A stretch of DNA of 64,000 bases from Nitrospira defluvii (GTDB taxonomy: Bacteria > Nitrospirota > Nitrospiria > Nitrospirales > Nitrospiraceae): the NCBI GenBank assembly GCA_000196815.1, contig FP929003.1, positions 3,867,501-3,931,500 on the forward strand, in the 5' to 3' direction. Numbering within the stretch: position 1 is the stretch's first letter; each line of letters begins with the position of its first letter. Positions 25,270 to 40,462 of this stretch are shown here, in pieces. Position numbers and translations under genes: made by a program. A model generated the notes under the pieces. That model searched no databases. It had not been told where the DNA came from and worked only from the letters and a program-made list of their open reading frames with translations.

Positions 25270-26232
25270 CTACTCTTTCGTCATCGAGACCTTCATTCCC
25301 GCATCTTCCTTGGCATCCTGCGCGCACCGGAATCCCATCCAATTGATCTTCGTCTTGGGATCGGTGCCGTTCCGCATGGCTGCTCGCATCGTGGTGGTGC
25401 TATCCATCCAACCGCCACCGCGGAAGGCTTTCTGCGTTCCGGTTTCCGGTCCCTTCGGATTCCGACCCGGCGCGGTCTTGTAATAATCCTGGTCGTACCA
25501 ATCGGACACCCACTCGGCCACGTTCCCGATGGTTTGATAGAGACCGTAGGGACTCAGCGCATTCTCGTACTTATCGACGGAAATGATCGGCGGATAGAGC
25601 AACAACCGTTCAGGTCGATCCCGCACCGGCCCGGACAATCCGGTTCTGCCGAAATTGGCCCTGGTCGGACCGGCATATTCGCTGCCCCATGGAAACAGTC
25701 TGCCATCCACTCCACGCGCTGCCTTCTCCCACTCGGCCTCCGTCGGCAACCGCTTCCCCGCCCATTTGCAATAGGCATCGGCGTCATACCAGTTCACATG
25801 CATGATCGGATGATGCGCCATCGTGTCCTGGAAATTACCTCCATCGTACCGCCAGTCCAATTGCGGCAGACGATCCGTGGCGAGGACAAACTTGAGATAC
25901 TCGAGCGCGGTCACTTCGTACTTACCGATCATGAATGCATCCAGATACACGGATCGTTGGGGAATCTCGCTCCGATACGCCAGGCGATCCGTCTTCTTAT
26001 CGCTGCCCATGAGGAATTCGCCGGCCGGAATGAGGACCATTTCCTCCTTGGTCTTCCATTTTGCGACCCGTTCCTGCGCGATTTTCTTGCCTTCTTCCGT
26101 CCACTCGATCACGATGTCTTGTGTATCCAACGCCCGTGCGGCCGGAGCCAGCGCGAACAGCGCGGCTCCGATGACGAGGGCATGCGCCAACCGTGCCCGT
26201 TTCCTTTTGATACCCATGTGCAGTCGTTTCAT
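25270..26232 (-). CDS. Exported SUMF1-fold protein (FGE-sulfatase-like, copy A)
   Basis: Exported protein of 320 residues with a signal peptide ending near AARALDT. The SUMF1/FGE domain is clear: VLIPAGEFLMGSD near 65-77, GKYEVTALEYLKF, KRLPTEAEWEKAARG, GNVAEWVSDWY and GFRCAQD at the end. The catalytic Cys pair of true formylglycine-generating enzymes is absent (FRGGGWMDSTTTMRA in that position), so it is probably not an active FGE. AAGGAGG precedes the ATG at 26232. It follows copy B by 31 bases in the multicopper oxidase cluster. A role in assembling or anchoring that oxidase is inference. Confidence 0.88.
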   Translation of the reverse strand: MKRLHMGIKRKRARLAHALVIGAALFALAPAARALDTQDIVIEWTEEGKKIAQERVAKWKTKEEMVLIPAGEFLMGSDKKTDRLAYRSEIPQRSVYLDAFMIGKYEVTALEYLKFVLATDRLPQLDWRYDGGNFQDTMAHHPIMHVNWYDADAYCKWAGKRLPTEAEWEKAARGVDGRLFPWGSEYAGPTRANFGRTGLSGPVRDRPERLLLYPPIISVDKYENALSPYGLYQTIGNVAEWVSDWYDQDYYKTAPGRNPKGPETGTQKAFRGGGWMDSTTTMRAAMRNGTDPKTKINWMGFRCAQDAKEDAGMKVSMTKE

Positions 26233-26263
26233 CTCTGGCCTCCTTGTTGTCCTGCCGTCACAC

Positions 26264-27196
26264 TCAGCGATCCGCATTCCGTAGAATGCCCGGATCAATG
26301 GACGAAAGCTGACGACCACTCTCGCCCGAGGTTGCGCAACGAAACCCTGTCAAGTAACTCCAGTGATCCAGCCCCCCCGAGTTACGCCCGGCTGAACGGG
26401 CGACCTCGGGATCTTCATTCCATGACCCACCGCGAAATACCTTGTCCTGTCCCGACGCCGGTCCCTGGGGATTGCGGTTCTCTTGCCGCCGGTAATATTC
26501 CGGATCGAACCAGTCTGAGACCCACTCGCTTACATTGCCGGCCAGTTGATGCACGCCGTAAGGACTCACACCGTTATCGTAACGATCCACATTCGCCAGC
26601 GGCGGATACTTGGCCCCGCGTTTCGAACCCGGATGGGCGATGTTGCTCTTGATCCATCCAGCCGGCTCATTGCCCCAGGGAAACATCCGTCCGTCTTCAC
26701 CGCGCGCCGCCTTTTCCCATTCCGCTTCGGTCGGTAAGCGGGCCCCGCGCCACCGGCAATAGGCATCGGCTTCCCGCCAGGAGACGCCGATGACCGGATG
26801 TTTGGCCATCTTGTCCGGAAACGGCTGGGCTCGCCAGTAGTGGGGCCATGCCGCGCCGGCCGCCAGTACGAAGCGCAGATAGTTCACATTGCTGACTTCA
26901 TACCGGTCGATGCTGAACGCATCGACATAGACCTGATGCTGAGGCAGTTCCTGCGGTCCGGCGGCCCGATCAAACTTCGGGTCGCTCCCCATCAGGAATG
27001 GACCGCCCGGCACCGGCACCATCCCGTCCGGCACCTCAGTCAAAGCCAACCGCTCTACATCATCAAGCGGGGACCAGAGCGGCGGCGGCTTCGGCAACTC
27101 ATGGTCGGCGTGGCTCGGCGCAACGGAGCCGAATACCAGCCCGGCGGCAAGGCCCAGCACAAGAGCCGGAATTAAACCAGGTAACCGGATGTCCAT
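26264..27196 (-). CDS. Exported SUMF1-fold protein (FGE-sulfatase-like, copy B)
   Basis: Protein of 310 residues with a signal peptide ending near PSHADHE. The SUMF1 domain hallmarks are MVPVPGGPFLMGSDPKFD, RYEVSNVNYLRFVL, ARLPTEAEWEKAARG, GNVSEWVSDWF and GFRCATS. It lacks the FGE cysteine pair (FRGGSWNEDPEVARSAG there). It is a clear paralogue of the next gene; the two share nearly identical motif order and probably arose by tandem duplication. ATG at 27196 with GGAG upstream. It lies 83 bases after the cupredoxin gene. Confidence 0.88.
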   Translation of the reverse strand: MDIRLPGLIPALVLGLAAGLVFGSVAPSHADHELPKPPPLWSPLDDVERLALTEVPDGMVPVPGGPFLMGSDPKFDRAAGPQELPQHQVYVDAFSIDRYEVSNVNYLRFVLAAGAAWPHYWRAQPFPDKMAKHPVIGVSWREADAYCRWRGARLPTEAEWEKAARGEDGRMFPWGNEPAGWIKSNIAHPGSKRGAKYPPLANVDRYDNGVSPYGVHQLAGNVSEWVSDWFDPEYYRRQENRNPQGPASGQDKVFRGGSWNEDPEVARSAGRNSGGLDHWSYLTGFRCATSGESGRQLSSIDPGILRNADR

Positions 27197-27279
27197 TACA
27201 CGATCACTCCGGACTCACTGATCCATCCGATCAGTGAGTCCACTGATTCACGAACATTTCGGCACGCGCGCGCCCCCAC

Positions 27280-28269
27280 TCAGTGCGCTTGCTTTTGCAG
27301 CAGGGGATCGATTTCCTTCTTCGCTTCCTCGGTCACGTTATAGCGGGTATACGCATGGTCCAGAACCTCATTGGCATACAACCGTCCGGTCGGCGCCGGA
27401 ACTCCGATCGTGGCCTCGACGGTGCCCTTCGGGCCGATGGTGACGGTTTGTTCCGTCGCGGTCCTGATATAGGGATGCCAGATGACCAACTTATAGGTAC
27501 CCGGCGGCACATCGGTCATGGTGAACCGGCCCTGCTCGTCCGTCTTGGCAAAGTATGGATTCGTGATGGCAACGCCCCAGCTCTCCATGTAGGCATGAAA
27601 TCCGCACTGCATGACGAAGATCCGGCGGCCTTTGCTGAGTTTCACCAACTCTTTCATCGGCGGACCGGCCATGTGCTTGTGATACATCCCGGCCTCCGTG
27701 CGATCCTTGAAATTGCGTGGATGCTGCGGATTCATCGGAAGCGGCACGTTGAACAGGACCCGCGCGCCTAAATTCGACGTTTCGTAGGCCTGAATGTCGT
27801 GCATCACGGGGTCCATGTTGACGACGGTGACCGACTGATCGTCCCGCACCACGGTGGTAAACGGCAGGAAGAGGCAATCCTTCGCTTCTATTTGCGGCAC
27901 CTCTTTTTCAGCGAACGCTTTTCCCTTCTCGATCCCCTCCAGATACACGACGACTTCCCGAAACTCGCCTCCCGGACCGACGTTGAACGGTTGCAGAATG
28001 CGCCAACCTTCTCCGTCGGAAATGCGCCCGCAATAGAACGGGTCCGGCAGCGTGGTGAGGTTGTACCCTTTCGGCTTCGGAACCGTCCCCTCCAACTTCA
28101 CGATTCCCGTCAGTGTCCCGCCATCCGATACGCTGACTTCTTCATAGGCCGATACAGGGCTGCTCGCGAGAGACGATGCGAGGGCCACCGTAGCCAATCC
28201 CAAGACCCACCCGAAAGAACTCTTCTTCATCGTCCGCTGTTCACTCTGCATTGTGGTACCCAGTGTCAC
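27280..28269 (-). CDS. Periplasmic cupredoxin-type protein with carboxypeptidase-regulatory-like domain
   Basis: Exported protein of 329 residues counted from a GTG at 28269, which has GAGGAGG six bases upstream; ATG starts at 28251 and 28230 are alternatives. Signal cleavage is near PVSAYEE. A cupredoxin-like region has candidate type-1 copper ligands His157 (VMHDIQAY), Cys222, His225 and Met228 (QCGFHAYM). Residues 236-275 look like a carboxypeptidase-regulatory beta sandwich (EQGRFTMTDVPPGTYKLVIW). It lies between the giant multicopper oxidase and the SUMF1 pair and is a natural candidate electron carrier or copper donor for that oxidase (inference). Confidence 0.78.
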   Translation of the reverse strand: MTLGTTMQSEQRTMKKSSFGWVLGLATVALASSLASSPVSAYEEVSVSDGGTLTGIVKLEGTVPKPKGYNLTTLPDPFYCGRISDGEGWRILQPFNVGPGGEFREVVVYLEGIEKGKAFAEKEVPQIEAKDCLFLPFTTVVRDDQSVTVVNMDPVMHDIQAYETSNLGARVLFNVPLPMNPQHPRNFKDRTEAGMYHKHMAGPPMKELVKLSKGRRIFVMQCGFHAYMESWGVAITNPYFAKTDEQGRFTMTDVPPGTYKLVIWHPYIRTATEQTVTIGPKGTVEATIGVPAPTGRLYANEVLDHAYTRYNVTEEAKKEIDPLLQKQAH

Positions 28270-28369
28270 GTCCGGCCTCCTCTGTGATTGGTCCATGATA
28301 CGATCGACAGATCTCATCGATCATACAAGGAACCCATCACCTAATTCCTCTCCCGAAACTCAAAACGCA

Positions 28370-28431: not shown

Positions 28432-31400
28432 TTACTTCATGGCAGTCGGAATCGCCTGCGGCTCGGGCAGCACTTCAGCTTGACGTGCACCCGCTCCACT
28501 TGCGCTGAGAGGCTGAATTCGCGCATCGCCGGTCGGCAACACGCGCAGATAGCCCCACTGTCCGGACTGCGTGTAGGGCAGCCGTGCATTCGACCACACG
28601 AAGTCGCCCACCTGACGATACGGTCCGCCCGCACCGCCACGGATGAAGACATCGAGGATCTCAGATCCGGCATACTCCACCACGCTGATCATGTCGGCAC
28701 CCGCCATGTACGGCTCGATCGGCCACTCGTGGCCCTCGACGCTGAACATGCCGTTCTGCTCGCTGTTCGCTCCGATCACATGGATACGGAGCGCATCACC
28801 CGCGTGCGCCTCGATCAACGGCGTCACGGGATCTTCGGGCTTATCCACCGCGCAAGGCTGGAAGATTTTGCCCAAGGAGCACCCTTGTTCTTCGCGGAAC
28901 TTGTACGGTTCAGCGCGGTAGTTCACCGACGTCAAACCGGCCACGTTCTGCACGTAGGGCATGAAGGCGGTTCCGATGATGTTGTCCTCATCCTGGAAGA
29001 AGAGGGCCACGTCACGATAGTTCCGCTTTCCGGCATTTTCAGACAAGGTGGTGTCGACGATGACGTCGGCCCGCCATGTATTCTTCTGTGACACATCGGC
29101 ACCGGTGACTGGATCACGATACTGCGATCCCTTCGGCCCGATGACGATCGCGCCGTACAATCCGTTGCGCGGATTGACGACGATGTTACCACCGTCCCAC
29201 ACCAACGACGTCGTTTCCTTGTTTGCAGGATGCGCGTAGTAGGTATAGGTGCGGCTCTCGCCCGGAGCCACGGTCTGATCGCCGGCATTGTTGCCGACAT
29301 TCAAGCCCTGGCTGTCTTTCGGATCGAAGGCCAGGCCCGGCGCAAAGAACGACGCCCGGCTCGCCTTCATCTTGTTCTTCAATTGCACCTTGATGCAATC
29401 GCCCAGATTGGCGCGCAGCGTGAGCGGATTCGGCATCACGTTGCCCGCGACGGTCGCGGCTTCTTCCTCCAGCGCGAAGATCTTGCCTTCCGGCATGGTC
29501 ATTTCGATCTTCCGCTCGAAGTCCACCTCGATCGCATCCGGGGCCTTCGGATTGAGCTTCATCGGGCGATCCAACGCCACGACGTTGAAGCTCTTCACCG
29601 GAGCATCCGACGGACACACGGAATTGGGAGTCGCCGGAATCCCGAGAGGATTGGTCCCCTTGGGCAGCGGCTTCAAGTCCGCCACTTCCTTGTCGAGCAC
29701 GCGGATGATGCCCCATCCACCTTCGGCAAAGTGTGACGTTCTGCCGTTGAAGTGGATGTAGTCGCCCGGCATACCCTGGAATCCACCCGCCTTGGTGACG
29801 AGGTCGTACCGCTCGGCGATCCCGACGTGAATCGAGTTCTTCCGGTTGGCTTCCGGCGCATACCGCTCCGTGAGGAAGGTATGTCCGGCGATCGTCCAGA
29901 CGTGGGATTCGTTCATCAGCTGGTGCAACAGACGGAACACCATGGTGTCGCCCGTGTACGCCCGGAGAAGCGGCGTGCCCGGATCACCGTGGATCGCGCT
30001 GCTGAACAGCTTGGACGTGTCAGGATTGTTGGACAGGCGTTGTGCAAACGGAGCCGCGCGGAAGTTGAACCCGCTGCCGGTCGTGTGCGTGCCGCCGTTG
30101 ATGTACTTGTTCGGCGCATTCAGGATCTTGTCCGGCATCTGGAAGGACACCGTTTTTCCTGCTTCCAACGCCACTTCGATCGGCTGTCCGGGAGGATTGC
30201 CGGCTTCGATGACGTTGACGGTGTGCGGAACCGTGTCGTGGATGGAGACCATCAACTCACGGAAGCTGCCGCTGACACCGGCACCGATCGGCTCGTTGCT
30301 GTGAATGTCCGCGATCGGACCGCTATACACCAACTTGCCGTTCTTCGGATCATGGTAGGTGGATCCGAATGGCTCCACGATCGTCACGCCGAACCCGCCA
30401 TGGGGCCAGGTCGTCGCGCCGAACGCGTGGTCATGCCAGAACACCGTACCCATATCCACGTCCACCCACCACCGATAACGCACAAACTCCGGCGACACGA
30501 GATCGCCCGCCGGGTGATGGTGCTTCAGCGGCTTGAAGAACGTGACGACATCGCCCTTGATTTCCTTGACCCGGGCGACTTCCTGACAGCTCTTATCCCG
30601 CGGCAGTGAGGCCGCCGGATCGTTACCCTTCTCCAAACAATCCATACCGACCATCAACTCGGTGTTGACGTGGAAGGCCGTGGCGCCGGGCGCCATCTGG
30701 ATCTTAACGGAGGTCGCACCAGCTTTTGCTTCACCGGTCAACTTCGCCACCATCGGAGCCGGCAAACCATGCTTGGTCTTCTTCCCCCACATGGTGAACG
30801 GCCGGACCGACATTTCGTACTCCATCCCGGAGATGACACCGTCGGAATTTCCGGTGTCGAACTGGAAGAAGTGGGGATGGATGTTGATCTTGGACGACTG
30901 GAAGTTCGTGTAATCGTCGTCGTCCCACTCGCTGGTCAACAACAAGTCCACGCAGTCATACACGTTGGCGCGGATGACGGCGGGCAGTTTCAGATCGTCA
31001 TTGGCTCTGGTCAAACGCTCTTCTTCGTGAAGGACGTAGATCAGGCCGTCCTTGTCCACCATGGCCGGCTCTTTCCCCTGCTTCTTGGCAAGGGTGATCG
31101 GCATGCGGACAAAGTGGATGTTGTAATGCTTCCGATTGGCGTTGTCAGGGCACAGGCTCCAACGGCCCTGTTCGCCCGGCATCGCCGGCTCGGAGGTCCG
31201 CTCACCGTTTGCATCCTGGTGAATCGGCTCCAACCATGGCGCACCGCTGTGGTTCGCCGAGAACGGCACGCGCTTGCCGAAGTGCGGCTTGAACAACGGC
31301 CAGGCCATTTTCCCTGTCGTCGGATCGAACAGGATCGCCGGTCTGGTGCTGTCATCCCACTTGGCGGCCCATGCATACTTCGGATTCGGGGCAGTGCTCT

Positions 31401-33369
31401 CCCGCTCGCCGCGGGCGATGTTGCCGTCCCACTTCCAGTCCCACACCGTCGAATCGTAGGCCATGATCTGGCCCTTCTCATCGTTGGTGTGGCCCGGTTG
31501 ACCCTGGGCCGGCACGAACATCTCGACCCAATCCTTGATGTTCACGATCACAGGATCGGACTTCCAGTTCGTCTTCTGGCTCTTGTCGACGATCTTGAAG
31601 GTCTTGCCGAACCAGTCGACGGTCGAGCCGATCAACTTATCGGACGAGACACCCTGCTTCATGCGGCCCAAACGATCGGGCAATTCCCGCATATCCGGCA
31701 TCGTGTCGGTGTGCGCATTGCCGACCTGCAACGTATTGTAGAACCGGCCGTACCCCCACATGCCCGCCACATAGTGGTGCGCGACGTGGCAGTGATAGAG
31801 GAATTCGCCGGCCAGGTGCTGACAGCCACCGCCGCCGCACTCCGGCTCCAGGTCAAGGGCCTCAGAGGGACCGACGACTTCGACGTCGACCCGATCCGAC
31901 TTCGTCCGGACCACCGGATATTTCACCGGACCGTCCTGCCCCTTGTACCAGTGCTCTTCCTGATCGGCACGCGGGCTGCGCTGCCAACGGATGGTTCCGC
32001 TGTGGGGATGGTGGGAGTGGAACACTTCGGATCCACCATGGACCAACCGCCACTTGACCGGATCACCGAGGTAGCCGCGGGCCACCGTGGTGGGAGGGTC
32101 ACCGAAGGTGTAGGCGCTGTAGGCCAGCGACTCATCTTCGAAGCCGAAATATTCATGCTGCAAATGCATCTGATCGATACCGAACGGCTCGCTGCGATAG
32201 TTGATCGCGCGGCCACCCGGACGATAGGCGTCCGTCAACGGATCGCGCTGCGGCAAGAAGTCACCCTTCTTGTTCAGCGGCCGGAAAGCTTCGTCGCCGA
32301 TCTCGTGATAGAACAACACGAACTCGCGAAAGTCCGGTCCGGACCCGTTGTCGATCATGACCTGCCATCCGCTGTTGGTATCAGGCGCGGCGCCCGTGCC
32401 GAGCGGATCGAGGTACTTGGAGCCCTTCGGTTCGACGATGAAGGCGCCGAAGAGGCCCAACACCGTCAACTCGCGATCGTGGCTCCAGGAGTGGAACTGA
32501 CGCACACCTTCCTGCATGTTCGGATGGATGTACCACTCGAACTCCTGCGCCTTGCCAGGCGAGACCACCGTGTCCGGATTGGTCGTCGTGGCGGGCTTTC
32601 CAGTGGAGCTCACAATCATGCTTGAGGCTTGGATGACCAAGCTGCCATCCTCGCCTTCCATCTGATTGCGCAGCGTCATCTTGACGCAATCGCCCTGGTT
32701 CGCACGAAGCACCAGCGGCTGAATCGCATCGCCCTGGTTTCCGGTCGTGACGGCTCCGGGATCGAATCCGTCTTTTTCCCGCGCTTCCTTGTTCTTGGTT
32801 TCCTCGGCGCGAACCTTGTCGATCTCCCCGGTATGGACGTACATATACCCGGGATAGAAGTCGAGCCACCGGTTCAAGCTGATTTCGATGTTGATCATCG
32901 ACACGTCGTACTTCTTGACCGGCGCATTGGCGGGACATTTTCCGCCGGACGTCATGACCGGTTCACCCTTCGACGAATCGGAGGCGAGCAGGAAGCTGCT
33001 GCCATCCTGCCCCATATACTGGTGCATCATCGACATTTCGTTGAATGCACCGGAGGTCTGCTGCGCCTTCGCATCCGTCTGCGCCTGCTGTTCCAACTTC
33101 TCCATCAGGCGATGATGCTGCATCTCCATCTTCTCTGCATTCCCGGCACGACCCTCCATGGCGTTTTCCACCACGGTCTGACCCTTCAGGGTCTGGGTCC
33201 AGCCCGGCATGGCGACCGGCGTCGCATGCCCATCATGCGACTGATCGCCCGGACCAGCCGCAAATACCCACGGCGCCGCGAGCAAACTGCCCGAGAGCAG
33301 CGCCGCCTGCAGGCTCAGCATCGCTTTACGACTGATGCGCCTGCGTTTTGACTGCACTGAAGACCTCAT
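28432..33369 (-). CDS. Giant exported multicopper oxidase
   Basis: Protein of 1,645 residues, three times the size of a laccase. The N-terminus KRRRISRKAML with a hydrophobic stretch and AAG fits a Tat-type signal. Many cupredoxin domains are present. Copper motifs: YHCHVAHHYVAGM with His526-Cys527-His528 and the axial Met (type 1 plus type 3 ligands), HPH at 831-833 in NIHPHFFQF, and WHDHAFGATTWPHGG at about 978-992 (His979, His981). A further HSHHPHSGTIRW lies near 455-466. Giant MCOs of this size include the Mn(II) oxidases MnxG and McoA of Pseudomonas; that substrate is a hypothesis here. GGAGGGAGG precedes the ATG, and a sigma54 promoter stands 240 bases upstream. Confidence 0.9.
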   Translation of the reverse strand: MRSSVQSKRRRISRKAMLSLQAALLSGSLLAAPWVFAAGPGDQSHDGHATPVAMPGWTQTLKGQTVVENAMEGRAGNAEKMEMQHHRLMEKLEQQAQTDAKAQQTSGAFNEMSMMHQYMGQDGSSFLLASDSSKGEPVMTSGGKCPANAPVKKYDVSMINIEISLNRWLDFYPGYMYVHTGEIDKVRAEETKNKEAREKDGFDPGAVTTGNQGDAIQPLVLRANQGDCVKMTLRNQMEGEDGSLVIQASSMIVSSTGKPATTTNPDTVVSPGKAQEFEWYIHPNMQEGVRQFHSWSHDRELTVLGLFGAFIVEPKGSKYLDPLGTGAAPDTNSGWQVMIDNGSGPDFREFVLFYHEIGDEAFRPLNKKGDFLPQRDPLTDAYRPGGRAINYRSEPFGIDQMHLQHEYFGFEDESLAYSAYTFGDPPTTVARGYLGDPVKWRLVHGGSEVFHSHHPHSGTIRWQRSPRADQEEHWYKGQDGPVKYPVVRTKSDRVDVEVVGPSEALDLEPECGGGGCQHLAGEFLYHCHVAHHYVAGMWGYGRFYNTLQVGNAHTDTMPDMRELPDRLGRMKQGVSSDKLIGSTVDWFGKTFKIVDKSQKTNWKSDPVIVNIKDWVEMFVPAQGQPGHTNDEKGQIMAYDSTVWDWKWDGNIARGERESTAPNPKYAWAAKWDDSTRPAILFDPTTGKMAWPLFKPHFGKRVPFSANHSGAPWLEPIHQDANGERTSEPAMPGEQGRWSLCPDNANRKHYNIHFVRMPITLAKKQGKEPAMVDKDGLIYVLHEEERLTRANDDLKLPAVIRANVYDCVDLLLTSEWDDDDYTNFQSSKINIHPHFFQFDTGNSDGVISGMEYEMSVRPFTMWGKKTKHGLPAPMVAKLTGEAKAGATSVKIQMAPGATAFHVNTELMVGMDCLEKGNDPAASLPRDKSCQEVARVKEIKGDVVTFFKPLKHHHPAGDLVSPEFVRYRWWVDVDMGTVFWHDHAFGATTWPHGGFGVTIVEPFGSTYHDPKNGKLVYSGPIADIHSNEPIGAGVSGSFRELMVSIHDTVPHTVNVIEAGNPPGQPIEVALEAGKTVSFQMPDKILNAPNKYINGGTHTTGSGFNFRAAPFAQRLSNNPDTSKLFSSAIHGDPGTPLLRAYTGDTMVFRLLHQLMNESHVWTIAGHTFLTERYAPEANRKNSIHVGIAERYDLVTKAGGFQGMPGDYIHFNGRTSHFAEGGWGIIRVLDKEVADLKPLPKGTNPLGIPATPNSVCPSDAPVKSFNVVALDRPMKLNPKAPDAIEVDFERKIEMTMPEGKIFALEEEAATVAGNVMPNPLTLRANLGDCIKVQLKNKMKASRASFFAPGLAFDPKDSQGLNVGNNAGDQTVAPGESRTYTYYAHPANKETTSLVWDGGNIVVNPRNGLYGAIVIGPKGSQYRDPVTGADVSQKNTWRADVIVDTTLSENAGKRNYRDVALFFQDEDNIIGTAFMPYVQNVAGLTSVNYRAEPYKFREEQGCSLGKIFQPCAVDKPEDPVTPLIEAHAGDALRIHVIGANSEQNGMFSVEGHEWPIEPYMAGADMISVVEYAGSEILDVFIRGGAGGPYRQVGDFVWSNARLPYTQSGQWGYLRVLPTGDARIQPLSASGAGARQAEVLPEPQAIPTAMK

Positions 33370-33393
33370 ATGTCGGCCTCCCTCCTTTATAAT

Positions 33394-33435: not shown

Positions 33436-33594
33436 GACCGGCCTCCGTCAGGCAGGACCCCGGCTCCTCCGGCCTCTCCTTGTTCCCTCCACGAAACGCT
33501 CCCAAAAGGAAAAAGGGCTGGTGAAGGATGTCCTCAAAGTTCGAGGGAGCAGGTCATTCGGAGGCCGGTCCTAATCACCCGCACCTTCACCAGC
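33436..33594 (-). promoter_or_regulatory. Interleaved inverted repeats in the oxidase 5' leader (possible pseudoknot or RNA switch)
   Basis: Two perfect inverted pairs are present. GACCGGCCTCCG (33436-33447) matches CGGAGGCCGGTC (33559-33570), 12 bp. GCTGGTGAAGG (33517-33527) matches CCTTCACCAGC (33584-33594), 11 bp. Their order is B-A-B-A, so both can form together only as a pseudoknot; otherwise they are alternatives. They lie within the predicted leader from the sigma54 promoter at 33608. A translation or termination switch is inferred. Confidence 0.55.
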
Positions 33595-33607
33595 ACTGCC
33601 CAACATC

Positions 33608-33621
33608 GCAATTGATGTGCC
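33608..33621 (-). promoter_or_regulatory. sigma54 (-24/-12) promoter of the multicopper oxidase
   Basis: The minus strand reads GGCAC-ATCAA-TTGC, an exact match to the core GGCAC-N5-TTGC with the invariant GG and GC ten bases apart (the base before GG is G, not T). Transcription would start near 33597, giving a leader of about 228 bases to the ATG at 33369. The next gene upstream encodes a sigma54 activator, which supports it. A short palindrome CTAGG-GGTCGT-CCTAG (33624-33639) lies just upstream of the -24 element. Confidence 0.72.
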
Positions 33622-33944
33622 CCACTAGGGGTCGTCCTAGCCGGACTGAAATCTTCTATATTTTTAAGGTGTTGGAGAGTTATGTAGGAAATTTTGAACC
33701 GGCGTAAAATGCCACAGTTTTCCAGACGATTAGACAACACAACCAGAGGCAGAGATGAACACTTAAAATACAATCACTTAGACTGTCCAAACTGCTGTAC
33801 ATCAAATCGTGGATTTTGGGGCGATACGGGACAGCTTCCCCGGTTAGCGGTTACGAATGGAGAGCCATCGGACTGATCCTGGAGAGAATTAGTATTGACG
33901 CAAGGAGCGGGTGAGGGGCCTAAAAACAGGCTCTCTGAGATGAG

Positions 33945-35348
33945 CTACTGAATACCGAGTTCGTGCAGCTTATTGTAGAGACTGGCCCGGCTGATTTTAA
34001 GGACACGAGCCGCTTGCACCCGATTCCCGGAGGTCTGCTGCAATGCCTGAAGGATACGCGTCCGCTCGGCCTGCCGAGCCGCACCCCGGCCGACCGTCCT
34101 GAGGTCGGTATCCTGAGGATGACTCCCCAGCTCGACCAGATCCGCACAGGTTAACTCCGTATGGATGGTGGTCACCACGGCTCGCTCGATGTAATGCTGC
34201 AACTCGCGAACATTCCCTGGCCAGGGCGCAGCGGTCAAGGCGCGCATAGCCTCTTCACTCACCTGGCGCAAATCCTGCCGATGCCGCTGGCAGGAGTCGG
34301 CAATAAATTTCGTAACCAAGAGTGGGATGTCTATCCTCCGGTCACGTAAGGGCGGCAAATGAACGGGCAACACGGCCAGCCGATAGTACAGGTCCTGACG
34401 AAACGCCTTTGCCTTGACCAAATCGGTCAGATCCTTATTGGTGGCAGAAATGACACGGACATCGATCTTGACCGGCTGTGTCCCGCCGACTCGCTTGATC
34501 TCGCCTTCTTGCAAGACTCGAAGAAGTTTAGCCTGGAAGGTAGGAGAGGTATCGGCGATCTCGTCCAGGAAGATCGTGCCGCCGTCGGCTTCTTCAAACA
34601 GACCGGGCTTGGACCCGGCTGCTCCGGTAAAGGCGCCTTTGACATGGCCGAACAGCTCACTCTCCAGCAACGTTTCCGGGAGCGCCCCGCAATCGACCAC
34701 CACAAAAGGCTTGTCACGACGATAGCTCGTCTGGTGAATGGTCCGCGCCACGAGTTCCTTTCCCGTGCCGCTTTCCCCCTGGATCAACACCGTGGCCGAA
34801 CTGTCGGCCACCAACCGGATCATTTCAAAGAGCTGATTCATGGCAGGACTCGCACCGACCAGATCGCCCAGCCTCGATTCGGTCCGCTCCGGGCGCGAAC
34901 GACCGGGCCTTTGCTGCGACAGCGACGCTGGAATGCTGAGCGGCTCCGGCCGCTTGTGAAACAGGACGAGAATGGAGCCCACCTCTCCCGCGGAGGAGAC
35001 AAGCGGAAAAGCCTGGTGCATACCACAGGCAGTCCCGTCGCCCGACGTGCTACAGGAGACTGTGAGCACTTCCCCGGTCTTAAACACCGACTCAGCCGGA
35101 CAAGTCCCACAGGGGTCTGTCATTTGAACGAAGGACTGAAAGCACTTGGCCGGCTTGGTTCCCGCCGGCGGCTTCCCTGACTTCCCCCAGGCTGCCTCGT
35201 TGGCATAGACGACATTGAGCTCCCGATCCATCACCGCGACGCGATCGGTCAGTCCATCGGCCAATTGCCGAAGCGCTTCCAAACGAGCGGCCAGAATCGG
35301 ATCGGCAAAGGGGGAAGAGGGCGTTACCTGTGAGTGAGATCCGGCCAT
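33945..35348 (-). CDS. PAS-domain sigma54-dependent transcriptional activator
   Basis: Enhancer-binding protein of 467 residues from the ATG at 35348 (GAGGAG seven bases upstream). Residues 25-135 are a PAS domain with Cys69, Cys80, Cys83, Cys99 and Cys108 ([10 protein letters not shown]), a cluster that could hold a metal or redox centre. The AAA+ domain has Walker A GESGTGKE (191-198), GAFTGA (238-243) for sigma54 contact, and Walker B GTIFLDEI (257-264). A Fis-type helix-turn-helix forms the C-terminus ([21 protein letters not shown]). There is no receiver, so it senses a signal directly. It lies next to the oxidase promoter and is its likely activator (inference). Confidence 0.92.
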
Positions 35349-35381
35349 CTCATCACTCCTCGTTTCTATGGGAACCAAGAG

Positions 35382-35406: not shown

Positions 35407-35440
35407 TATTTGTACTACGCCCGCGACCACGAAGACAACC

Positions 35441-35457
35441 CTCCCCCCTTGGGGGAG
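35441..35457 (-). terminator. Terminator-like hairpin after the receiver gene
   Basis: CTCCCC (35441-35446) and GGGGAG (35452-35457) form a 6-bp stem, 33 bases beyond the stop of the receiver gene on the minus strand. There is no clear U-tract. Confidence 0.35.
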
Positions 35458-35489
35458 ACCTCGCGAAAACACGTATCCATCGGCACTGT

Positions 35490-35894
35490 TCAGTGAAACA
35501 GTCCATCCTCGGACCGGCCTCCTGGATGTTGCAGGAGTTGCTTGACCGTCGCTTTCAGCTCCGACAGCCTGACCGGCTTGTCAAAGTAGGCCGTCGCGCC
35601 GCTTTTCATCGCCTCATCCTTGGTCTGTGCGTCACCGAAGGCGGTCATGACGATAATCGGACAACCGGGCACACAGCGTCTCAATCGATGCACATAGTCG
35701 AAACCACCGGCCGGCATTTTTAAGTCAGTCACGATCAGATCGGGGGCCGCTCGCATGACCGCAGCCAGCCCCTCGTCCCCGTTGCTGGCCTCGCGTAACT
35801 GGTATCCCTCTCCCCACAACTCATCGCAGAGCAAGCTCCGCATATCCTTATCATCTTCCACCACCAGGAGGACGGCTGGTGTTCGGCTTTCCAC
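35490..35894 (-). CDS. Stand-alone response-regulator receiver protein
   Basis: Single receiver domain of 134 residues: acidic pocket VVEDD near the start, phospho-acceptor Asp in VTDLKMP, Thr in MTAFG and Lys in FDKP. There is no output domain, so it probably relays phosphate or acts by protein contact. The start is chosen as GTG at 35894, with GAGGG eight to nine bases upstream, because a consensus sigma54 promoter at 35936-35950 would start transcription near 35924. An ATG at 35921 would leave almost no leader. It sits between the histidine kinase and the PAS activator genes, on the same strand. Confidence 0.85.
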   Translation of the reverse strand: MESRTPAVLLVVEDDKDMRSLLCDELWGEGYQLREASNGDEGLAAVMRAAPDLIVTDLKMPAGGFDYVHRLRRCVPGCPIIVMTAFGDAQTKDEAMKSGATAYFDKPVRLSELKATVKQLLQHPGGRSEDGLFH

Positions 35895-35935
35895 CTTCGA
35901 GCCCTCGGAATAGATCACCATGGGGACGACACAAC

Positions 35936-35950
35936 GCAAACCATGTGCCA
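35936..35950 (-). promoter_or_regulatory. sigma54 (-24/-12) promoter of the receiver gene
   Basis: The minus strand reads TGGCAC-ATGGT-TTGC, an exact match to the sigma54 core consensus including the first T. The predicted start of transcription is near 35924, about 30 bases before the GTG start at 35894. This is the best sigma54 site of the window and helps choose the start codon. Confidence 0.75.
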
Positions 35951-36078
35951 CTCGCGCCGGCGTGCGAACACGAGCAACTCCTTGTATTCACTGGATAACT
36001 AGCCGCGAAGGTTTTTGCAAACAGGGGGCGTATGCATCAGCCTCTGGCGAGAAAGACCCCACCCTCAGAAAAAGCCCT

Positions 36079-36101
36079 GTCCCGAAGCGCCACAACGGGA
36101 C
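36079..36101. promoter_or_regulatory. Possible enhancer (activator-binding) palindrome
   Basis: GTCCCG (36079-36084) and CGGGAC (36096-36101) form an inverted repeat 11 bases apart, about 130-150 bases upstream of the sigma54 promoter at 35936, the usual distance for enhancer sites. A CGGGAC half-site also occurs at 33827-33832, upstream of the oxidase promoter. Confidence 0.4.
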
Positions 36102-36201: not shown

Positions 36202-38880
36202 TCAGCTCTTGTCTATCGGCAGGCAAATGGTGAAAGTCGTCCCCCGCTCAGGCTCACTCTCCACCTCAATCGTTCCGCTGTGTTCCTCAATGATGCCCTT
36301 CACCACCGTCAAACCTAACCCGGTTCCCTTCCCGAACTCCTTGGTGGTGAAAAACGGGTCGAACACCTTGGCGATCACGTCGCGGGGCATCCCGTGGCCG
36401 GTATCCGCTACCGTCAACCGGACCATGCCACGGTCCGGCGTCAGGGCTAGTTTCAACAGGCCCCCTCCGGGCATCGCATGGATCGCATTCATCACCAGGT
36501 TGATCAAGACCTGGCTCATCTGATCGGCATCGGCATGCACCAAGGGGCAGGCGTCGGCAAAGGAGGTTTCTACGCTGATGTTGCTGTGCGACAGGCGCTC
36601 CTGGAAAATTTCCAGATTGTCCTCGATGGTCTGGCGCAAGTCCAAGGCACGGTGTTCGACCGGACGTCGCCGGGCAAACGCGAGCAACTGGTTCATCACC
36701 CGCGTAATTCGTTCGACCTGACTGACGATAGTTTGGAGCCCCTTCCTGACCGGCTCCTCCTTCGTGCGTTCCATCAGATATTCGGCCCGTCCCAGAATCA
36801 CGTTCATGGGTGTGCCGATCTCGTGCGCCATGCCGGATGCCACCGTTCCCAGTTCGGCCACGCGCTCCGTCCGGCGAAGTTGCGCCTGCAAGCGCTTCCG
36901 CTCCGTGATGTCGCTGGCAATGCCGTCGATGCGCAACGGACGGCCTTCGGCATCCTTGATGACCCGCCCGCGGTCGTGCAGCCAACGCAGATCACCGTCG
37001 AGCCTGACGATGCGATACTCCACATCGAACTCCCCCATGGTCGAGAGGGCCTGTCGCGCCTGTTCCGCAATCACACGATCGTCGGGATGAACGGCTTCCA
37101 GCCATAACGAGGGCCGGGCTAAGAATGCGTCGGTCGGACGGCCATAGATTTCCATCACGGACGGACTGACATAAAACATCGTGGACAGATCCAGCGACGA
37201 CGACCAGATGACATCCTCCATCGCTCCCAATAAACTTTGAAGCCGCTCTTCGCTCTCCCGCAACTTCTGTTCGGCCGCTTTGCGCATTGAAATGTCCCGC
37301 AAGACGACCAGTATCCCGAACCCCTCTTCGTCCTGGAACCGAGCGGCCCTGACAGCCACATCCACACTCACCCCGTCCAAGCGCACGATCTTTTCCTCGA
37401 CCTCAGGCACCGTGTTCCCGGGCCTCAGGAGATGCCGGATCCGTTCACCGATCAGCTCGTGGTAGTCGGGATGCGCCAGATCGTACAGCGATTTGCCGAG
37501 AATCTCCTCTCCCGACCGGGCCCCGAACAACCGAACCCCCTGTTCGTTGGTAAAGATGATCCGGCCCTCACGATTGACCAGGATGGCATCCGGCAAGACC
37601 GCCAGGAGCCGGCGATACCGGTCTTCGCTTTGGCGCAGCAGCGCCTCGGTCTTTTTCCACTCAGTTACATCGCGCGTCACACCCAAGACGGCCGTCACGG
37701 TGCCGTCGGCCGATCGCAGCGGCACCACATGCGTATCCAGCCAGCGATGAGTCCCCAGGAGACCGACCATTTCAAACTCCAATCGTCCCGCTTCCCCCCG
37801 CCCGGCTTTGCCGACCAGCTCACGGTAGACCGATCGAAATTCGTCGGTGACCAGGCGGCAGGCATCCCGTCCGATGACGTCGGCACCGCTCGTCGCCTCG
37901 ATCATGGCCAGACCTGCAGCATTGATGGTCCGGATTGTGCCATCCAGATTAAGCAGCTTCACACATTCGGGCTCGGTCTCAATAATCGCCCGTAACAGGG
38001 CCTCGCGTTCCGCCAGCTCCTGCTCGAGCCGTATGCGTTCGGTAATGTCGCGGAGGATGACGGTGTAATACCGCGTCCCTTCCACACCGATCTGCGAGAT
38101 CGCGGCTTCGATCGGAAATTCCTCTCCGTTGGCCCGGACCCCCATCACCATACCCAGCGCGCCCATTTGGCGCGTCGTGATACCGGAACGGCCGAACTCC
38201 CGGATATGCTCATCATGGGCGCTGCGGAAACGCTCGGGAAGCAGTCGATCCAGCGGCCGCCCCAGTACTTCCTCGGCGCCCCACTGAAACATCTTTTCCG
38301 CCGCCTGATTGAACAGCACGATCTTGTGGGCTTCGTCGACGGTAATGATCGCGTCCATCGCTGAGTGCACGATACCTTCGAAGCGAAGTTTGTCCTGATG
38401 CAGTTCCGCTTCGGCACGACGTTGTCCGTCCACCGCACCGACCACCGCCGCTTCAGCCCGGGCCCGCGCTTCCGCGTCCGAAGCCCCGATTGCCTCCGGT
38501 TGATGCCGCTCAGCCCGAGCCGTCGTAAACGCCTGGGACGACAGGCCCGGGCTCCCAGGAGAAGACCGACGGCGGGCAACCAGCGCGGCCACGGTCCCCA
38601 TGATCCCGATGCCCAGCAGACGATTGAGCCCTGTGAAGGGCGACAGGGATCCGGCGGAGGACACAAGAGGGCCGATGAACGCCAGCAACGCCACCAGGCC
38701 CATACCATAGAGGCGAACCTGCCCGAGTGAGGACGCCGCGATCAGAGTGAACGGAATTGCATATAGCAGCCACAGGTCGATCCCGGCAGGCGCCGACAGA
38801 TCCAGGACGAAGATCCCGACCGTCAGCAACAGAGGAAGGCCGCATTCGAACAGCGGGGATTTCTGATGAAGGGGCTGCAC
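36202..38880 (-). CDS. Multi-PAS sensor histidine kinase
   Basis: Protein of 892 residues. About four N-terminal membrane helices (15-100) are followed by four PAS domains (roughly 170-290, 300-410, 420-540 and 550-660), then HisKA with the phospho-acceptor His in MAHEIGTPMN and a HATPase domain with NLVMNAIHAM (N box), DTGHGM and GTGLGL. The output is phosphorylation of a response regulator, most likely the NtrC-type protein encoded 36 bases upstream in the same direction. It starts at GTG with GGGAG upstream. The ligand is unknown; no haem or flavin motif is clear. Confidence 0.9.
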   Translation of the reverse strand: MQPLHQKSPLFECGLPLLLTVGIFVLDLSAPAGIDLWLLYAIPFTLIAASSLGQVRLYGMGLVALLAFIGPLVSSAGSLSPFTGLNRLLGIGIMGTVAALVARRRSSPGSPGLSSQAFTTARAERHQPEAIGASDAEARARAEAAVVGAVDGQRRAEAELHQDKLRFEGIVHSAMDAIITVDEAHKIVLFNQAAEKMFQWGAEEVLGRPLDRLLPERFRSAHDEHIREFGRSGITTRQMGALGMVMGVRANGEEFPIEAAISQIGVEGTRYYTVILRDITERIRLEQELAEREALLRAIIETEPECVKLLNLDGTIRTINAAGLAMIEATSGADVIGRDACRLVTDEFRSVYRELVGKAGRGEAGRLEFEMVGLLGTHRWLDTHVVPLRSADGTVTAVLGVTRDVTEWKKTEALLRQSEDRYRRLLAVLPDAILVNREGRIIFTNEQGVRLFGARSGEEILGKSLYDLAHPDYHELIGERIRHLLRPGNTVPEVEEKIVRLDGVSVDVAVRAARFQDEEGFGILVVLRDISMRKAAEQKLRESEERLQSLLGAMEDVIWSSSLDLSTMFYVSPSVMEIYGRPTDAFLARPSLWLEAVHPDDRVIAEQARQALSTMGEFDVEYRIVRLDGDLRWLHDRGRVIKDAEGRPLRIDGIASDITERKRLQAQLRRTERVAELGTVASGMAHEIGTPMNVILGRAEYLMERTKEEPVRKGLQTIVSQVERITRVMNQLLAFARRRPVEHRALDLRQTIEDNLEIFQERLSHSNISVETSFADACPLVHADADQMSQVLINLVMNAIHAMPGGGLLKLALTPDRGMVRLTVADTGHGMPRDVIAKVFDPFFTTKEFGKGTGLGLTVVKGIIEEHSGTIEVESEPERGTTFTICLPIDKS

Positions 38881-38916: not shown

Positions 38917-40296
38917 CTACGCGTCTGAGTGTGGTTTGCCTTCGATTTCGGCAAGTTTCCGATACAGGGTCTTCCGGTCGATACCCAGGACGTGCGCGGC
39001 CTGATACTTGTTGCCGCCCGTCTTTTCCAAAATTTTCACGATGTACTCTTTTTCCACTTCGTGCAGCGGCAGGGTGCGTTCCGCGGCCTCATCGAGAATC
39101 CGGCGATCCCCTCTGGATCCTTGCACCTGCACCGGCAAATCGTCCGCGCCGATCATGTCCCCATGGCTCAGCGTCACGGCCCGCTCAATGACGTTCTCCA
39201 ACTCCCGCACATTCCCCGGCCAGGCATAGTCGGCCAGCATGGCGAGGGCGGATTCGCTGAGGCCCTTGACCTGCTTGCCCCTGCTGTCGGCGCACTTCTT
39301 CAGAAAGGCATCCACCAGAATCGGAATATCTTCCCGGCGTTCCCGTAACGGGGGAAGGCGCAACTCGATCACATTGAGGCGATAGTAAAAATCTTCGCGG
39401 AATCGCTTATTCTTTACTTCTTCGGCCAGGTTCAAGTTCGTGGCGGCGATGATGCGCACGTCCACGGGAATGGATTTGGTCGCCCCCACGCGGCGGATTT
39501 CCCGCTCCTGAATCGCCCGCAGAAGTTTGGCCTGGAGCATGAGCGGAAGTTCGCTGATTTCATCCAGAAACAGCGTGCCTTTTTGTGCTTCTTCGAAGAG
39601 CCCGCGCTTGTCCATTTTGGCGTCTGTGAACGAGCCGCGCATGTGCCCGAAGAGTTCACTTTCCAGCAATTGTTCAGGGATCGCGGCGCAGTTCACCGGG
39701 ACAAACGGCGCATCCCGCCGGTCGCTGTTGTAATGAATGGCCTTGGCGACCAGTTCTTTTCCCGTTCCGCTCTCTCCCGTGATCAACACGTTGGTCGGAC
39801 TGTCGGCCACGCGTCGAATCAAATCGAAGACCGCCTGCATCGGTTTGCTCTTGCCGAGGATCTGATGAAAGCTGTACTCCTTGTGGACCTCTTTCCGTAG
39901 CCGGCTGACTTCGCGCCGGAGCGCCGCTTCCCGGATCGCGCGCTCGACCACCCGTACCAGTTCCTCGGTTTTCACCGGTTTGGTTAGATAGTCGCTGGCG
40001 CCATGCCGGATCGCCTCGACGGCTGTCTCCACGGATCCGAAGGCCGTCATCAAGATCACGCCGATGTCGGGGTACCGTTGCTTCACCTCGGCCAACAGCT
40101 CGGTGCCTAACATACCTTTCATGCGGAGGTCGGTCAGGACCACGGCGTAGTCCTCCTCGCTCAACTGCTGCAGCGCGTCGTCACCGCTGCCGACGCCCGT
40201 GCATTGATGCCCGCGACCCTGCAGGACATCGCACAGCAGGCTGCGCATGTCGGCATCATCGTCGACCACCAGAACGGCACCCCATTCCTCAGTCAT
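38917..40296 (-). CDS. NtrC-family response regulator (receiver, AAA+, Fis)
   Basis: Regulator of 459 residues from the ATG at 40296, with GAGGGAG upstream. The receiver has Asp56 (VLTDLRMK) and Lys106. The AAA+ domain has Walker A GESGTGKE (174-181) and Walker B GTLFLDEI. The loop that contacts sigma54 reads GSFTDA (221-226) instead of GAFTGA, a departure that may change or abolish sigma54 activation. The Fis-type helix-turn-helix is GNKYQAAHVLGIDRKTLYRKL. It forms an operon with the histidine kinase downstream, and a sigma54 promoter for the divergent MacA-like gene lies upstream, its likely target. Confidence 0.92.
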   Translation of the reverse strand: MTEEWGAVLVVDDDADMRSLLCDVLQGRGHQCTGVGSGDDALQQLSEEDYAVVLTDLRMKGMLGTELLAEVKQRYPDIGVILMTAFGSVETAVEAIRHGASDYLTKPVKTEELVRVVERAIREAALRREVSRLRKEVHKEYSFHQILGKSKPMQAVFDLIRRVADSPTNVLITGESGTGKELVAKAIHYNSDRRDAPFVPVNCAAIPEQLLESELFGHMRGSFTDAKMDKRGLFEEAQKGTLFLDEISELPLMLQAKLLRAIQEREIRRVGATKSIPVDVRIIAATNLNLAEEVKNKRFREDFYYRLNVIELRLPPLRERREDIPILVDAFLKKCADSRGKQVKGLSESALAMLADYAWPGNVRELENVIERAVTLSHGDMIGADDLPVQVQGSRGDRRILDEAAERTLPLHEVEKEYIVKILEKTGGNKYQAAHVLGIDRKTLYRKLAEIEGKPHSDA

Positions 40297-40382
40297 ACAG
40301 CTCCCTCGCGTGCGCCTCTCACCAACCCTCCAGCCTGTGCGCGCACAGCCTAATCGGCTTACTCCCGGGCGGTCAAGGGGCG

Positions 40383-40393
40383 TCCTGCCGCAG
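40383..40393. promoter_or_regulatory. Possible enhancer palindrome for the MacA-like gene
   Basis: CCTGC-C-GCAGG is a perfect palindrome about 117 bases upstream of the sigma54 promoter at 40510, within the divergent region between the NtrC-type regulator and the adaptor gene. Binding by that regulator is inferred from position. Confidence 0.35.
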
Positions 40394-40462
40394 GTCATTG
40401 CCGCCTGCTGTCGCGAAATGCCCCAGCATCACTCGCAGACCAATCTTCCAGCCGTCGAGCTC

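Follow-up and report, generated by a model that had tools for sequence, protein, structure and literature searches.

A conserved sigma54 promoter ahead of a single-domain receiver gene and a predicted sigma54-started leader RNA of an MnxG-like oxidase in Nitrospira defluvii

Within the 64,000-nucleotide stretch of the Nitrospira defluvii genome analysed here (the window), the -24/-12 element ahead of a single-domain receiver gene is, as judged from its conservation across related loci, a genuine sigma54 promoter, real but an ordinary member of this promoter class. The novel part is not this promoter, it is a leader RNA predicted to start from another sigma54 promoter of the same neighbourhood and preceding the gene of a giant copper oxidase.

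Promoter and start codon of the receiver gene

Two features on the minus strand are at stake:
35936..35950, minus strand: sigma54 promoter (-24/-12) of the receiver gene, TGGCACATGGTTTGC, of the form TGGCAC-N5-TTGC, with a predicted +1 at 35924
35490..35894, minus strand: single-domain receiver of 134 aa with a GTG start (Response_reg, E 3.2e-23)

An exact sigma54 consensus on the minus strand had been reported at 35936-35950 in an earlier note and was confirmed by a pattern search, in which it appeared as the sole exact match of the window, the spacing from GG to GC being ten bases. The frequency given at the time, namely once per 260 kb per strand for nine fixed bases, was wrong since the pattern fixes ten bases, for which even composition predicts one match in 1.05 Mb per strand. 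The expectation per window amounts to 0.17 exact matches and, as at least one match was present in 15 of 100 dinucleotide-shuffled windows, the exact match taken alone is weak evidence. In the whole genome (one contig of 4,317,083 bases), 12 exact sites were found vs. about 8 expected (4.32 Mb at even composition, both strands). For the looser TGGCAY form, there were 29 sites, 13 of them intergenic on a crude ORF map, vs. 7 for the pattern read backwards. The genome has rpoN (one match, Sigma54_DBD E 2.9e-56) and 31 Sigma54_activat matches.

Both the shuffled windows and the near-expected number of exact genome sites speak for a chance occurrence devoid of function, a reading that is nonetheless hardly credible considering that the motif is kept in all 30 loci amid diverging flanks and that two conserved dyads lie upstream. 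For this comparison, the receiver was searched in 61 genomes and the 30 best loci were read, one per genome, i.e. 26 from the same genus (the window genome included) and 4 from outside it; the genus genomes G012, G017 and G028, with weak receiver paralogues only, were omitted. Loss of the -24/-12 bases in close relatives keeping the receiver, which the earlier note had held to count against the promoter, was checked and the elements turned out to be retained: TGGCAY-N5-TTGC is found in 25 of the 26 genus loci, L026 deviating only in the first T, as well as in L031, and GGCAY-N5-TTGC stands at the same position in 30/30 loci with a receiver orthologue. In an alignment of 26 sequences, the promoter mask ranks first of 312 placements over the non-coding stretch (mean identity of 0.97 vs. 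an average of 0.55), with one spacer base down to 0.48 and the preceding ten bases at 0.24-0.68; being the most conserved placement of the non-coding stretch, the site is lifted above chance. Further away, GGCAY-N5-TTGC is kept in 12 of 13 additional named sister-group loci and the receiver promoter in only 7 of 15 more distant ones, hence deepest branches partly without it, some of these named-relative loci belonging to the same genomes as the 61-genome set so that the sets are not independent. It is this conservation of the site across loci that led to rejecting, in the main, a chance match.

Counted from the -12 at 35936, the +1 is predicted at 35924, just as the earlier note had placed it, with ATG 35921 at +4, i.e. 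nearly leaderless, and GTG 35894 located 30 nt downstream. The preference then expressed for the GTG is supported, the codon-position signal beginning there. For codon positions 1/2/3, compared in those 20 genus loci whose ATG is in register at -60, differences of 0.42/0.46/0.41 from ATG to GTG reveal no coding signal; they become 0.26/0.13/0.42 between the GTG and the receiver core, then 0.07/0.04/0.38 over the 30 codons that follow. Receiver translation very likely starts at GTG 35894, for which the promoter is a lesser argument than these codon statistics, and most loci have GAGG or GGAG, resembling a Shine-Dalgarno, ahead of this GTG. Speaking against this start, L007 has GCG at the GTG position, the GTG is shifted in L009 and L031 has no start there. 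A nearly leaderless message, on which the receiver would be translated from the ATG at +4/+5 (35921), could draw on the presence of this ATG in 26/26 genus loci and on the lack of a start codon at the GTG position in L007. Against it, L008, L010 and L011 have this ATG in another frame, the codon-position differences before the GTG are flat and GAGG or GGAG generally precedes the latter, which makes such a message quite improbable; with no codon signal between ATG and GTG, ATG 35921 is disfavoured as receiver start. The conservation of this ATG (35920-35924, minus strand) throughout the genus is an observation in its own right, though it is apparently no protein start.

Upstream dyads, the oxidase operon and the choice of activator

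Upstream of the receiver promoter are found two dyads:
36078..36094, minus strand: dyad 1, TGTGGCGCTTCGGGACA, centred at -162, probable activator site, 13 of its 17 positions being the same in every aligned genus locus
36045..36061, minus strand: dyad 2, TGGGGTCTTTCTCGCCA, centred at -129, probable activator site

Both are 17 bp long, of the form TG-N13-CA and as conserved as the promoter, with centres 33 bp apart in the window, and no other 17-bp block of non-coding sequence scores as high as dyad 2 in the 26-sequence alignment (mean identity of 0.98). In 13 sister loci, the dyad sequences have changed and the pair is retained, as a clearer dyad, e.g. TGTAGC-N5-GCAACA. They look like a tandem enhancer on which two dimers of a sigma54 activator would sit on one face of the helix, at a distance from the promoter that is usual for sigma54 enhancers. 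In genome-wide searches, dyad 1 showed no excess (45 matches vs. 55 for the control), which leaves the dyad family unproved, and dyad 2 a small one (18 vs. 9 control matches); on these counts, the delineation of a genome-wide regulon by dyad search was rejected.

A related arrangement precedes the oxidase gene downstream:
28432..33369, minus strand: MnxG-like multicopper oxidase of 1645 aa (PDB 9bxa MnxG, E 1.6e-83; Cu-oxidase_3)
33608..33622, minus strand: second sigma54 promoter, of the oxidase operon, GGGCACATCAATTGC, with a predicted +1 at 33596
33817..33833, minus strand: dyad related to receiver dyad 1, TGTCCCGTATCGCCCCA, a 3-mismatch match from the genome search, conserved in the genus alignment
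33784..33801, minus strand: second oxidase-upstream dyad, TGTACAGCAGTTTGGACA, a conserved inverted repeat centred about 33 bp from TGTCCCGTATCGCCCCA

At the genome rate of 45 matches, about 0.006 relative of dyad 1 would be expected in the 575-bp gap upstream of the oxidase, a post hoc figure. A 16-row genus alignment of this gap shows the two dyads, the sigma54 element and a leader of about 230 nt, the leader being nearly invariant over much of its length; the second promoter is conserved therein, some rows varying in the spacer and in the C/T of GGCAY. Because of the related dyad and of the second sigma54 site, the oxidase operon would belong to the same regulon as the receiver. The oxidase is termed MnxG-like only, since homology is clear but its score stays below the cut-off of the NCBIfam MnxG model NF041487 (110.1 bits vs. 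3100). The part of PMC3578206 available mentions a conserved N. defluvii multicopper oxidase similar to the manganese oxidase of Bacillus SG-1; three MnxG-like oxidase genes are present in this genome and that mention is not attributable to one of them. Behind the oxidase, at 25270-28317 (minus strand), lie a 345-aa ORF, which had no NCBIfam match, and two proteins weakly matching GldK/EgtB-type formylglycine-like families, the first and last of these three ORFs having GGAGGCC before a start.

Three neighbouring genes encode regulators, a kinase and an NtrC-type regulator upstream of the receiver and, downstream, a receiverless activator followed by the 1645-aa oxidase:
33945..35378, minus strand: receiverless sigma54 activator (Sigma54_activat E 1.5e-72, Fis-type HTH of the HTH_8 family, GAFTGA loop), the listed TTG start at 35378 of which may not be the true one
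36202..38880, minus strand: multi-PAS histidine kinase (PAS, HisKA, HATPase_c)
38917..40398, minus strand: NtrC-type response regulator (Response_reg, Sigma54_activat, HTH_8), in which GSFTDA replaces GAFTGA

In known activators, it is the GAFTGA loop that contacts sigma54. The receiverless activator adjoins the receiver in 30/30 named Nitrospira loci, its loop reading GAFTGA except for GSFTGA in two loci, whereas the NtrC-type regulator has GSFTDA or GAFTDA in every named locus read. Because of this difference, the receiverless activator (33945-35378) is favoured for both promoters, with modest confidence. Alternatively, the receiver promoter would be just as real and its activator would be the NtrC-type regulator (38917-40398) once phosphorylated by the kinase next to it, and other genes would be the targets of the receiverless protein. 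The kinase and regulator genes are indeed directly upstream and kept beside the receiver in most named loci, and several other activators of this genome also deviate from GAFTGA; the altered loop of the NtrC-type regulator and the location of the receiverless activator between the two dyad-sharing promoters nonetheless make this assignment rather unlikely. Within the genus, the GSFTDA of the NtrC-type regulator is kept, the GAFTDA variants occurring in sister loci. As for the N-terminal region of the receiverless activator, no domain was found there by Pfam search; it contains several cysteines and is perhaps a metal or redox sensor. Counting against the scheme proposed below, a terminator-like hairpin was listed between the receiver and activator genes at 35440-35458 by a scan with a total of 4 such sites vs. 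2.9 in shuffles.

A structured leader RNA and its invariant loop

The transcript predicted from the second promoter would begin with a structured RNA, and its leader contains the following elements:
33517..33596, minus strand: leader hairpin RNA, with a basal stem, an inner stem bearing an invariant loop and a third stem (covariance model, 95.4 bits)
33560..33571, minus strand: invariant loop, GGACCGGCCTCC, found as GGACCGGCCTC in 43/43 copies
33437..33447, minus strand: mid-leader element, CGGAGGCCGGT, a perfect complement of the loop and a possible decoy or antagonist
33374..33381, minus strand: oxidase Shine-Dalgarno, GGAGGCCG, complementary to the hairpin loop CGGCCUCC

The exact loop motif occurs once each in 29 of the 61 genomes; its presence within the genus coincides exactly with that of the receiver orthologue (26 of 29 genomes). 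A covariance model search over 395 sampled genomes of the phylum found the hairpin in 112, spread over two families of the order. From the listed places, 20 distant stretches were taken for their divergence or extra copies and regardless of any promoter; they contain 23 hairpin copies, all 23 upstream of an oxidase homologue, including tandem paralogues. For structure statistics, 43 sequences were selected from 40 sources so as to limit redundancy. Over the 25 pairs of the structure, 95.4% of the cells are paired vs. 84.3 in shuffles, in an alignment fitted to the model and as such biased towards structure; 17 of the 25 pairs have changed on both sides, 10 of the 11 pairs of the basal stem covary, and sliding the partner columns by 1-3 lowers pairing to 38-55%. 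Such strong covariation argues for a conserved structure in the 5' leader.

Using a model built from 26 sequences, some rows of which had been cut at the predicted +1, the +1 falls 0-2 nt from the model start in 41 of the 43 copies, given GGCAY-N5-TTGC or GG-N-AY-N5-TTGC, 40 of them with the strict form; the strict GGCAY-N5-TTGC was found in 0 of 1032 other windows. The two remaining copies, in L240 and L241, are each the second and downstream one of a pair and may be transcribed by read-through; both loci have two tandem oxidase paralogues with one hairpin each and a sigma54 site at the first only. Between 33300 and 41000, nothing matched the Rfam 15 covariance models at E values up to 1 and, at L049, L246, L048 and L240, there were only two sub-threshold matches, located away from the hairpin. 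A known RNA was rejected for want of an Rfam match around the locus, as was a terminator, none being listed there by the terminator scan.

The complementarity of the loop to the oxidase Shine-Dalgarno suggests translational gating. As isolated duplexes, loop and Shine-Dalgarno would pair at -19.2 kcal/mol, and loop and mid-leader element at -28.9 kcal/mol, the mid-leader complement being missing from some distant leaders. GGAGGCC stands before the oxidase start in 21 of 25 leaders (three with GGAGGCT, one with GGAGGCA). A set of 100 distinct long ORFs has GGAGG ahead of a start, and CC continues the motif in 32 of them, namely 25 oxidases and 7 others, four of the latter lying downstream of an oxidase in a presumed operon. 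Since the loop is invariant, its pairing with the Shine-Dalgarno is without covariation proof. Two MnxG-like paralogues of this very genome also count against a gate, i.e. L261 (3279774-3284591), which has the Shine-Dalgarno, with GGAGGCCGG before its ATG, and no hairpin, and L262 (3518216-3523021), which has a weak hairpin match (20.8 bits) with the loop GGACCGGCCTCC and no CC extension.

Rather than a cis switch, the hairpin might be a small RNA acting mainly in trans, its CCUCC loop blocking the Shine-Dalgarno sites of several messages. This would suit the L261 paralogue, where AAGGAGGCCGG is found without a hairpin of its own, as well as the GGAGGCC at two downstream genes of the window and at the first downstream gene in L258 and L259. 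Position before an oxidase homologue, shared by all 23 copies of the 20 distant stretches, is however typical of a cis element, and no terminator-like site follows the hairpin in the scan; an RNA acting mainly in trans is on the whole unlikely.

Proposed scheme and known systems

The anatomy of the locus suggests a scheme in which RNA polymerase-sigma54 would wait at 35936-35950 until remodelled by an AAA+ activator bound as two dimers on the tandem dyads at -162 and -129. Transcription from near 35924 would then yield a 30-nt leader, followed by the receiver with its start at GTG 35894, and may extend into the activator gene behind it. With the neighbouring receiverless GAFTGA protein (33945-35378) as the likeliest activator, this would close an autoregulatory loop. 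The MnxG-like oxidase operon would be part of the same regulon via its related dyad and its own sigma54 site, and its transcript would open with the hairpin, the loop of which would pair with the ribosome-binding site or the mid-leader element; it is because either pairing could form that a second, translational gate on the oxidase is proposed. As a whole, the scheme, i.e. a sigma54 promoter, a neighbouring activator bound to the dyads, a regulon shared with the oxidase and a translational gate, is considered probable. More tentatively, with chances put at slightly less than even, the hairpin would represent an undescribed class of regulatory RNA of the Nitrospirales, started by sigma54, which would respond either to a partner or to a signal such as a metal or the redox state, and open or close the ribosome-binding site of the MnxG-like oxidase via its invariant GGACCGGCCUC loop, the oxidase then being gated by a two-component/sigma54 step and an RNA step acting in series.

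On how nitrite-oxidizing and comammox Nitrospira control their genes, little seems known. The footprint described here provides a testable regulon core composed of a promoter, a tandem enhancer and a candidate activator, and in the leader RNA there is a strong candidate for a new RNA family, linked to a giant copper oxidase. The substrate of this oxidase in Nitrospira is not established, and the signal of the leader RNA could reveal its purpose. No account of the receiver promoter or of the leader RNA was found in the literature covered, with subscription papers mostly outside, including passages of PMC12342949, PMC5767232, PMC3578206, PMC13374858, PMC11409713 and PMC11930936.

The receiver promoter resembles the sigma54 (RpoN) promoters served by enhancer-binding activators of the NtrC/NifA type in the -24/-12 spacing of GG and GC, the dyads 130-160 bp upstream and the neighbouring GAFTGA activator; no clear difference from these systems was seen for this promoter, the dyad matching no named site. 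The nearest functional parallel found is in Pseudomonas, where, according to the passages available, the MnxS1/MnxS2/MnxR two-component pathway, with a sigma54-dependent regulator, controls mnxG and mcoA, and sigma54 sites are predicted upstream of both genes (PMC11409713; PMC11930936). In these passages as here, sigma54-dependent control would bear on a multicopper oxidase, the regulators being likened by function and not by orthology. Compared with what is described there, the favoured activator in Nitrospira is receiverless, the receiver being a separate protein whose gene has a sigma54 promoter to itself, and the arrangement includes a structured leader RNA. With riboswitches and other cis-acting leader RNAs sequestering the Shine-Dalgarno, the hairpin shares its location in the 5'-UTR, its covarying stems and an invariant loop complementary to the ribosome-binding site; it differs from them in that it matches no Rfam family and has its start 0-2 nt from a predicted sigma54 +1.
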